Shown: positions 9,930-18,319 of the stretch, one piece after another | How positions within the stretch are numbered: the first letter of the stretch is position 1 | Layout: the number at the start of each line of letters is the position of its first letter | IMG/VR virus record: IMGVR_UViG_3300024180_000503 | Coordinates: 1-25,762 of that record | Source of the DNA: a virus | DNA: 25,762 bases | Direction: 5' to 3' (one strand) | The notes under the pieces: generated by a model | Databases searched by the model: none | Told to the model about the DNA's origin: nothing | Seen by the model: the letters and a program-made list of their open reading frames with translations, nothing else | Position numbers and translations under genes: made by a program

Positions 9930-9949
9930 AATATTTCCTTGATTTTATT

Positions 9950-9955
9950 ATTATA
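9950..9955 (-). promoter_or_regulatory. -10 element for the outer-membrane protein gene
   Basis: A perfect TATAAT on the minus strand lies 20 nt upstream of the ATG at 9929. No convincing -35 is visible, so the gene may also be read through from the tmRNA promoter. Confidence 0.35.
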
Positions 9956-9960
9956 CACTT

Positions 9961-9977
9961 TAACGCTAATTGCGTTA
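9961..9977 (-). terminator. hairpin at the 3' side of the tmRNA gene
   Basis: Perfect 6-bp inverted repeat TAACGC/GCGTTA with a 5-nt loop, just downstream of the last tmRNA helix. With no U-tract, it may act as an RNA-processing or weak termination signal. Confidence 0.35.
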
Positions 9978-9980
9978 TAG

Positions 9981-10271
9981 TAGCAAGTTGATTCTGTTGC
10001 CAGGTCCAACTTGCAAAAACCCCTACGTGCTTAAAACTAAGCCGCTAATGCCATTTCTGGCGAATAATTGTCATTTGCAATTATAAAGTTTGTTCGCGGT
10101 AACGGCGCTTACATCCCGGCAACTCCCTTTACCTATTAGCTACCCAGTCGAACCTATTTCAACCCCATCAAAAACACACTATGAACTACTAGTAACAATG
10201 TGTTTATGGTGGAGTTGTCCGGTACCGCCCCGGAGTCCTGAATCAGCGTTGAGTAAATTTCAACATTGCGT
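9981..10271 (-). ncRNA. ssrA: circularly permuted two-piece tmRNA
   Basis: Transcribed on the minus strand in permuted order. The acceptor piece (about 10271-10207) comes first. It has a T-like arm TCCGG/CCGGA, then CAACTCC, discriminator A and encoded CCA at 10209-10207. A 40-nt intervening segment follows (10206-10167), itself foldable by AAACACA/TGTGTTT. The coding piece starts at 10166 with GGGGTTG, which pairs with CAACTCC (7 bp, one G-U), followed by AGGTTCGACTGGG as in other tmRNA 5' ends. The tag frame starts at GCA 10078 and reads ANDNYSPEMALAA, stop TAG at 10039-10037. The piece ends with helix GCAAGTTG/CAACTTGC (10014-9983). Permuted tmRNAs are typical of alphaproteobacteria and some cyanobacteria. 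The tag rescues stalled ribosomes and marks products for ClpXP. Exact processed ends are estimates. Confidence 0.92.
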
Positions 10272-10273
10272 AT

Positions 10274-10306
10274 TATTTATGATAACACAAAATTAAGTTA
10301 TGTCAA
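10274..10306 (-). promoter_or_regulatory. overlapping sigma70 and late promoters of the tmRNA gene
   Basis: Minus strand: TTGACA (10306-10301), 16-bp spacer, TATCAT (10284-10279). The late box CATAAATA (10281-10274) overlaps the -10. Both would start within a few nucleotides of 10270, at the 5' end of the acceptor piece. The -35 overlaps the end of the iscU gene. Confidence 0.7.
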
Positions 10307-10703
10307 CCGGTTTTGCGTTTATTTGTTGTTTTTTTCCAGAATAATCTCTAACTGCGGCTTTAATGGCATCTTCTGCCAATACGCTACAGTGTATCTTAAC
10401 TGGTGGCAATGCAAGTTCTTCTACTATTGTTGTGTTTTTAATCTCTTGTGCTTGATCTAGTGTCATACCTTTAAGCATAGTTGTTACCATACTTGAACTA
10501 GCAATTGCACTTCCACAACCGTATGTTTTGAATTTTGCATCTTCAATAATGCCATCTTCTGTTACTTTAATTTGTAAACGCATTACATCACCACATGCAG
10601 GTGCGCCTACCATTCCAGTTCCGATATTATCTTCCTTGGGGTCGAACTTACCTACATTTCTTGGATTATTGTAATGGTCTAGCACTTTTTCGCTATATGC
10701 CAT
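10293..10703 (-). CDS. iscU: IscU-type iron-sulfur cluster scaffold
   Basis: The protein is 136 residues, close to bacterial IscU (128). All cluster ligands are present at the classical positions: C37 and D39 (APACGDV), C63 (YGCGSAIASSS), H105 and C106 (KIHCSVLAEDAI). IscU assembles [2Fe-2S]/[4Fe-4S] clusters from IscS-derived sulfur. The client-transfer LPPVK motif is intact (ALPPVKIHC), so interaction with host HscA is possible. No iscS or hscA is in the window, so it would rely on host partners. In this region the radical SAM enzyme is an obvious iron-sulfur client. The late box at 10726-10733 and AGGAAG lie before the ATG. Confidence 0.93.
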   Translation of the reverse strand: MAYSEKVLDHYNNPRNVGKFDPKEDNIGTGMVGAPACGDVMRLQIKVTEDGIIEDAKFKTYGCGSAIASSSMVTTMLKGMTLDQAQEIKNTTIVEELALPPVKIHCSVLAEDAIKAAVRDYSGKKQQINAKPVDIT

Positions 10704-17482: not shown

Positions 17483-17785
17483 TTATTCTGCTTTTTCTAT
17501 TGTAACGTCTAATGGAAATTGGTTTCTTCGTGCGTCAGTAATAGTTTCCACACATTTTTGCTCAGCTACTTCGTAACTGTATGTGCCTGCAATGCCTCGG
17601 CCCTTTTCGTGGACTTCAAGCATCACCACGTTTGCTTGTTCTGTCGATCTATTAAAAATTGTCTGTAAAACATTTACAACAAACTCCTGTGGCGTAGAGT
17701 CATCGTTTAACAATACAACATTGTATCTTGATGGTGTTTTTAATTTAGTTATTTCTGCTACGCTACTTGATGATGCTTGAGTCAT
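17483..17785 (-). CDS. clpS: ClpS adaptor of Clp proteases
   Basis: The protein is 100 residues. A flexible Ser-rich N-terminus is followed by the ClpS core: PSRYNVVLLNDDSTPQEFVVNVLQTIF, VMLEVHEKGRGIAGTYSYEVAEQK. The N-degron pocket residues NDD (27-29 region) and the conserved His of VHEKG are present. In bacteria ClpS delivers N-degron substrates to ClpA-ClpP. No clpA is visible here; the phage encodes ClpX and ClpP. It may therefore recruit host ClpA or inhibit or redirect host Clp machines. AAGG lies before the ATG, and it sits 14 nt downstream of hsp20. Confidence 0.93.
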   Translation of the reverse strand: MTQASSSSVAEITKLKTPSRYNVVLLNDDSTPQEFVVNVLQTIFNRSTEQANVVMLEVHEKGRGIAGTYSYEVAEQKCVETITDARRNQFPLDVTIEKAE

Positions 17786-17799
17786 TTTTTTACCTTATA

Positions 17800-18222
17800 T
17801 TAGTCAATGTTAATAGTTCGTGGTTTCTTTTCGTCTGGAATATTTTGTTCCAATGTAACTACTAAGATACCGTTATCTAGCTTCGACGATGTTACTTCTA
17901 CATAATCAGCTAAACTAAATTCTCTTGTGAAGTTTCTAGTTCCGATGCCTTTGTGTAAATATTCAATCTCTTCCTCGATTGGTTTCTTTTCAGCGTTAAT
18001 TGAAAGTGTATTACCGTCTTGTTGGATTTTTATTTCGTCTTTATCAAAACCTGCTACTGCTAGGCTAATAGAATAGCTACTGTCACTTTCCTTTACAATA
18101 TTGTAAGGTGGGTAACCGCCTGTGTTTGTTGTGAAAGCATTTGCCATCTCATCAAACATACTATCAAATCCTATTGTAGTTTTATAAAAATCTGGAAGAT
18201 TTAGTGTTGTTAATCTAGTCAT
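17800..18222 (-). CDS. hsp20: Hsp20/IbpA small heat-shock protein
   Basis: The protein is 140 residues. The N-terminal part TLNLPDFYKTTIGFDSMFDEM and the alpha-crystallin domain (YSISLAVAGFDKDEIKIQQDGNTLSINAEK, FTREFSLADYVEVTSSKLDNGILVVTLE) match bacterial IbpA-type holdases; a C-terminal EKKPRTINID follows. Hsp20 genes are common in T4-like marine phages, possibly aiding capsid assembly or proteostasis. The ATG at 18222 has AAGGAG 7 nt upstream. The frame can be extended to a TTG at 18246, but that lies inside the candidate thermometer stem. The leader carries three hairpins, the last one masking the ribosome site. Confidence 0.92.
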   Translation of the reverse strand: MTRLTTLNLPDFYKTTIGFDSMFDEMANAFTTNTGGYPPYNIVKESDSSYSISLAVAGFDKDEIKIQQDGNTLSINAEKKPIEEEIEYLHKGIGTRNFTREFSLADYVEVTSSKLDNGILVVTLEQNIPDEKKPRTINID

Positions 18223-18228
18223 ATCTTT

Positions 18229-18308
18229 TCTCCTTATATTAAGCAAGATTATTTAGAACCCTTTCGGCGTTCTATGTATACGGTAGGAATCAGTCCTGTT
18301 GTATACAT
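18229..18308 (-). promoter_or_regulatory. ROSE-like RNA thermometer in the hsp20 leader
   Basis: Three consecutive minus-strand hairpins. H1, 18308-18274: ATGTATAC/GTATACAT, a 3x3 internal loop, then AGGA/TCCT. H2, 18273-18255: AGAAC-CC with a GAAA tetraloop, then GG-GTTCT, one bulged G. H3, 18248-18229: TCTTGCTT/AAGGAGA with a 5-nt loop. In H3 the Shine-Dalgarno AAGGAG pairs with UUGCU, leaving a bulged G and one U-G pair. This is the defining arrangement of alphaproteobacterial ROSE thermometers, which also control hsp20-family genes. A 19-codon ATG frame (18308-18249) also spans H1 and H2. Confidence 0.7.
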
Positions 18309-18311
18309 TGT

Positions 18312-18319
18312 TATTTATC
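18312..18319 (-). promoter_or_regulatory. T4-type late promoter box for hsp20
   Basis: GATAAATA on the minus strand; predicted start about 18306, at the base of the first leader hairpin, giving an 84-nt leader for hsp20. Confidence 0.55.

Follow-up and report, generated by a model that had tools for sequence, protein, structure and literature searches.

Locus and leader architecture

The window, by which we mean the whole 25,762-nucleotide stretch analysed here, is a 25.8-kb virus record that carries a proteostasis and translation block on its minus strand. The gene of a small heat-shock protein, Hsp20, lies in this block behind a structured leader, which an earlier note had read as three hairpins, the last pairing the Shine–Dalgarno (SD) sequence AAGGAG with TTGCT around a bulged G. 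The features are listed below, with bulged nucleotides in square brackets.

24014-17483, minus strand: block encoding ClpP, ClpX, IF-3, S21, Hsp20 and ClpS, the proteolysis and translation set surrounding the putative thermometer gene
18312..18319, minus strand: T4-late-promoter-like GATAAATA (consensus TATAAATA), one mismatch; the transcript would start at ~18306, at the base of H1
18274..18308, minus strand: H1, 5'-terminal hairpin, outer stem AUGUAUAC/GUAUACAU, inner stem AGGA/UCCU (predicted fold)
18254..18274, minus strand: H2, UAGAAC[G]CC-GAAA-GG-GUUCUA (3' part, GGGUUCUA), with a bulged-G YGCC/GGG module (covariation)
18230..18247, minus strand: H3, ROSE-type SD-sequestering hairpin, CUU[G]CUU-AAUAU-AAGGAG (conservation in protein-selected loci, matches of models R1 and R2)
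18230..18235, minus strand: SD sequence AAGGAG, the 3' arm of H3 (sequence)
18222-18220, minus strand: ATG start codon of hsp20
17800..18222, minus strand: hsp20, IbpA-class small heat-shock protein of 140 aa (Pfam HSP20 1.1e-19, PHROG 432 3e-40, translation)
17483..17785, minus strand: clpS, immediately 3' of hsp20 (Pfam ClpS 5.8e-29)
9946-10327, minus strand: permuted two-piece tmRNA of alphaproteobacterial type (RF04321, RF01849; ARAGORN tag ANDNYSPEMALAA)

hsp20 and clpS probably share one transcript. Eight tRNAs lie close to the permuted tmRNA; a permuted tmRNA with tRNAs nearby has already been described in Melnitz-type marine phages (PMC9004378).

All three proposed hairpins could be mapped in the hsp20 leader on the minus strand, and the fold of the 111-nt leader was better than that of 200/200 dinucleotide shuffles (z = -3.46). 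H1 is confined to the phage clade of the window, and its inner pair is AGAA/UUCU in L016, L017 and L020, which are compensatory variants. Read on the plus strand, H1 (18274-18308) resembles an intrinsic terminator, with a 15-pair stem followed by TGTTATTTAT; no plus-strand gene clearly requires one. H2 and H3 (18274-18254 and 18247-18230) together constitute a ROSE-type unit. In H3, CUUGCUU pairs with AAGGAG and leaves G18244 bulged, bearing out the proposed SD pairing; the minimum free energy structure of the window leader in the nearest-neighbour model prefers a partly different pairing (AUCUU/AAGAU and CUU/GAG), in which the GAG of the SD stays paired. The ROSE-type H3 alone has a predicted energy of -3.1 kcal/mol at 15 °C and -0.2 kcal/mol at 37 °C in the nearest-neighbour model.

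Relation to known ROSE elements

ROSE-like thermometers are defined by two to four hairpins, a U(U/C)GCU strand paired with the SD and a bulged G (PMC11182007). The window leader has three hairpins, with H2 and H3 present in nearly all relatives; its last hairpin pairs CUUGCUU with AAGGAG and bulges G18244, and the gene behind it (Pfam HSP20 1.1e-19) encodes an IbpA-class small heat-shock protein, the classic ROSE target. This match to the published architecture supports the ROSE hallmark claimed for the leader.

The Rfam scan proposed in the earlier note gave a divided result. In a search of 251 nt, ROSE_3 (RF02523) matched 18276-18217 on the minus strand with 25.6 bits (E = 0.0017), the alignment reaching the AUG. 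The model scored 34.1 bits on the leader of Melnitz and 26.8 bits on that of C48C1. The gathering cut-off of 43 bits was reached neither by the window nor by any phage leader scored. ROSE (RF00435) and ROSE_2 (RF01832) had no match in the window, whereas the ibpA control gave 100.4 for ROSE_2. At gathering level, no ROSE annotation from Rfam fell on the window or on the other phage leaders tested. Because a search of 191 alphaproteobacterial genomes and of the virus record itself with RF02523 also gave few matches, none above cut-off, we considered the Rfam models poor probes here and built two covariance models, R1 and R2. Since the leader has the sequence features of ROSE-like elements and fails the Rfam cut-offs, we describe it as a phage variant with a ROSE-like way of working, and not as a member of RF02523.

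One of the nearest known elements, the E. coli ibpA leader (ROSE_2, RF01832), shares the layout of the last two hairpins, with GACGC[G]CC-UGAU-GGGUGUUC followed by CUC[G]CUGA-uuu-CAGGAG over the SD, before an IbpA-class small heat-shock gene, and also contains the bulged-G YGCC/GGG module of H2. The phage versions, by contrast, are short (mostly two hairpins, ~46 nt) and AT-rich, occur in lytic phages behind a late-promoter-like box and are missed by the RF01832 model. ROSE_3 has two hairpins in the same order, the bulged G and equal spacing to the AUG, and the window aligned at all 69 of its positions, but every phage score fell below 43 bits. The known phage RNA thermometers, in lambda cIII and, as fourU elements, in SPbeta blyA and a Caudoviricetes sigma70 gene (PMC10586365, PMC11182007), are likewise phage-borne and translational, but they are single cases from other structural classes and control no chaperone genes. 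A search of the open-access literature, with subscription papers and preprints outside its scope, found no RNA thermometer on a phage chaperone gene. Phage RNA thermometers as such are not new.

Conservation and covariation of the leader

For the conservation counts, loci were chosen by Hsp20 protein similarity alone, ignoring the RNA, and scored for the motif YYYGCY..GGAG ending at the SD. With the window Hsp20 as query, the motif was present in 75/76 records (75 loci from relatives and the window); the sole miss, L033, is a frameshifted gene with a miscalled start, and its true leader has the motif. A cyanophage query returned 79 cyanophage-type hsp20 loci (44 distinct leaders), all of which carry it. 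Almost all cultured phages inspected have the motif, among them P-SSM3, P-TIM40, P-SSM5, Syn30, syn9, HTVC008M, HTVC115P, Mosig, Melnitz, Phosso, Atu_ph07 and Paride, and the hosts of these motif-bearing phages are Prochlorococcus, Synechococcus, Pelagibacter, Methylophilales, Sinorhizobium, Agrobacterium and Pseudomonas. Synechococcus phage DSL-LC02 is without the exact motif; as read from its sequence, its SD can be closed by UUAGAU/AUCUAA. All H3 arm classes listed place a bulged G opposite the SD, with a CUYGCUU or CCUGCCU strand in relatives. H3, on whose conservation in related phages the earlier note had made its reading depend, is thus kept almost without exception. Among 396 SD-bearing ORFs in these loci, used as a control, the motif occurs on hsp20 and at one homologous internal chance site in a GMP-reductase gene and nowhere else, which rules out chance SD complementarity in AT-rich DNA. 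A distant blastn search of the locus against GenBank phages returned no match, and a search of genome contigs with the window protein found only three loci.

The H2 stems are almost wholly different between phages, with pairing retained. Covariation was measured on alignments fitted to a model with equal-length seeds; MAFFT on raw leaders misplaced the SD. Over both helices, 97.7% of cells are paired and changes on both sides number 208 versus 56 in shuffles, a level reached by 0/500 shuffles, and shifting the pairing partner by one column abolishes the H2 signal. In an independent search for bulged-G hairpins, 54% of 175 distinct leaders scored ≥20 versus 0.5% of shuffles, and the outer H2 positions each show several Watson–Crick pair types. 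The compensatory changes anticipated in the 18248-18229 stem were also found: two U-A to C-G exchanges convert CUUGCUU/AAGGAG to CCUGCCU/GGAGG, and CUCGCUA/UAGGAG has a U-A to A-U exchange, in both cases with pairing kept. The 3' arm of H3 is the SD itself, which keeps the hairpin largely invariant, so that its covariation rests on few sequence classes.

R1, made from seven leaders (six cyanophage-type and one other metagenomic) of which none belongs to the window's clade, detected the window leader at 18230-18274 on the minus strand with 19.1 bits (E = 0.007 in 613 kb). R2 comprises 61 leaders, the window included. On 17 phage records (~3.7 Mb), its top match was the hsp20 leader in 17/17, among them the records outside the training set (HTVC008M, HTVC115P, Mosig, Atu_ph07 and Paride), with only three weak extra matches.

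The element before dnaK, groES and small genes

A motif-only scan of IMG/VR with the pattern CTTGCTTAA(0-4)AAGGAG returned at least 124 sites in at least 120 stretches. Among the matches listed, ~100 are with hsp20, and several of the other sites precede dnaK or a short unknown protein. Phage dnaK genes collected by protein similarity have the element in 70/70 leaders (40 distinct), and in these dnaK-selected loci hsp20 adjoins dnaK in 65/67. When R2 was run on eight dnaK-type records, it matched at dnaK, at hsp20, at groES and at a protein of 63-73 aa that has no Pfam match. ROSE-type elements on groES leaders come from the metagenomic phages L466, L467 and L471 (Pfam Cpn10 9.5e-31). One protein of contig L190, from the set with ROSE-led dnaK, is 40% identical to a protein of the window phage.

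hsp20 genes that abut a ROSE-led dnaK (gap of 2-17 nt; 6/18 inspected) are without their own copy, whereas those set 44-90 nt away have one. An own copy only at the wider gap fits a translational switch and not a DNA-level signal. The presence of the element before both dnaK and groES in related uncultured phages suggests a portable module for phage chaperone genes.

Similar-looking proteins of 63-90 aa without a Pfam match stand behind ROSE-type leaders in L081, L188, L189, L463 and L469, and that of L188 overlaps the hsp20 start by 4 nt. Such proteins could represent a new small stress protein.

The finding is thus confirmed and is larger than first claimed, extending to nearly every phage hsp20 examined and to phage dnaK and groES. 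On this distribution, viruses appear to run RNA-controlled heat-shock genes of their own.

SD burial, predicted heat response and putative promoter

GGAG is buried in the set of 88 distinct hsp20 leaders: its median unpaired probability was 0.06 at 15 °C and rose to 0.20 at 45 °C, whereas 95 other phage genes gave 0.42-0.48 (p ~1e-17 for the difference). For the window leader, nearest-neighbour folding does not predict heat-opening, AAGGAG accessibility being 0.75 at 5 °C and 0.51 at 50 °C; the validated ibpA thermometer of E. coli also opens very little by this method (0.00 to 0.20). Comparison across leaders shows a conserved, SD-sequestering architecture of the ROSE type, and opening of the leader by heat would follow by analogy with published ROSE behaviour.

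The T4-late-promoter-like site is not significant in the window alone, which has 102 one-mismatch sites versus 95 expected. Across the family, TAAATA lies within 50 nt in 78/134 leaders (17 expected), and in many leaders this late-promoter-like box is ~10 nt 5' of H2. Its family-wide position indicates that the leader hairpins are probably the 5' end of a late transcript.

Bacterial relatives and origin

Cyanophage small heat-shock proteins are of class A, whereas host cyanobacteria have class B and Prochlorococcus has none (PMC3827213), which argues that gene and switch were not acquired from those hosts. The idea that gene and regulator were captured together fits this picture, as the cyanophage proteins are unlike those of their hosts and yet the element is present.

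Marine alphaproteobacteria also have this leader on hsp20. In alphaproteobacterial genomes, R2 matches fall on hsp20 in most matching genomes, and a loose form of the motif is present in 21/30 protein-selected hsp20 leaders. These leaders, SAR11-type and others, resemble those of the phages in this respect and differ in being chromosomal. A leader of this kind also precedes an alphaproteobacterial chromosomal dnaK (L338; R2 E 0.008). In an Hsp20 tree, which for this short protein has weak deep branches, most bacterial genes form one clade and SAR11-type genes lie inside phage groups. Such nested SAR11-type hsp20 genes with the same leader are found in L320, L334, L329, L330, L331 and L319. Their placement within phage diversity suggests exchange as a unit, possibly in either direction; transfer of gene and switch from phage to host is possible from the tree.

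Proposed mechanism and alternatives

The leader is a widespread, previously unannotated, phage-borne variant of the ROSE-like thermometers, whose heat-opening we infer. We regard it as likely that the 5' leader of the hsp20 mRNA of this marine phage acts as a phage-carried, ROSE-like translational thermometer. Transcription would probably begin from a late phage promoter, right at the base of the leader hairpins. At low temperature, judging from conservation and covariation, the CUUGCUU strand would hold AAGGAG in the weak, G-bulged H3 beside the stable, bulged-G H2. Warming would loosen H3, as in experimentally studied ROSE elements, so that ribosomes could load and Hsp20 would be made as proteins begin to unfold. 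The same element before dnaK and groES in related uncultured phages would serve as a portable chaperone-gene module.

Autorepression by Hsp20 would be the main rival or a partner mechanism. E. coli IbpA acts through the 5' UTR of its own mRNA to repress it, for which R93 and an aromatic residue at the Y34 position are needed (PMC10474464). By analogy, free Hsp20 oligomers would bind the leader and block their own translation until aggregates titrate Hsp20 away, so that the leader would sense unfolded protein; repression of this type could account for the conservation of the leader even if no temperature is sensed. At the position of R93, phage Hsp20 has R in 209/214 and K in 5/214, and at that of Y34 it has Y or F in 214/214, so Hsp20 may also act on the leader, and dnaK, which has the element too, could be repressed by Hsp20 in trans. 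These residues may, however, be kept for class-A structure alone, IbpA K98, which is also important, is not conserved in the phages, and both mechanisms coexist on the one E. coli leader, so that autorepression and a thermometer are compatible. That the leader is mainly autoregulatory is possible though doubtful.

We consider it improbable that the hairpins sense nothing and just shield a late mRNA at its 5' end or fix a low level of translation. The TAAATA box ~10 nt upstream of H2 (78/134 versus 17 expected) would put a hairpin at the very 5' end, but a stability hairpin needs neither an SD-pairing UYGCU strand nor bulged Gs, and the element is confined to hsp20, dnaK, groES and one small gene family. 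Hardly credible is a ligand riboswitch or a chance structure in AT-rich phage DNA: the single-sequence fold of the window leader is ambiguous, but covariation, detection by models across phages and the specificity of one match per genome largely refute it, and no conserved pocket is enclosed besides the bulged-G modules.

Biological significance

T4-like cyanophages have hsp20 among their core genes (PMC3037559), with an unproven role. A conserved translational switch on it would imply on-demand production of the chaperone by the phages, and would give direct access to the question of how warming affects infection of the ocean's dominant bacteria. As Prochlorococcus has no small heat-shock protein of its own (PMC3827213), the phage would bring both chaperone and sensor. 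The lytic phages that carry the leader allow a clean comparison of thermometer and Hsp20 autorepression. If the reading is true, ROSE-type control extends from small heat-shock proteins to phage dnaK and groES, and phage thermometers rise from a handful to hundreds. With somewhat less assurance than for the hsp20 leader itself, we favour a broader picture in which a viral heat-shock regulon of RNA thermometers is carried by aquatic phages, most sequenced T4-like cyanophages and pelagiphages among them: one small ROSE-type module would stand separately before hsp20, dnaK, groES and the gene of a small unknown protein, each time at the 5' end of a late transcript, and would be exchanged with marine alphaproteobacteria as a unit of gene plus switch.
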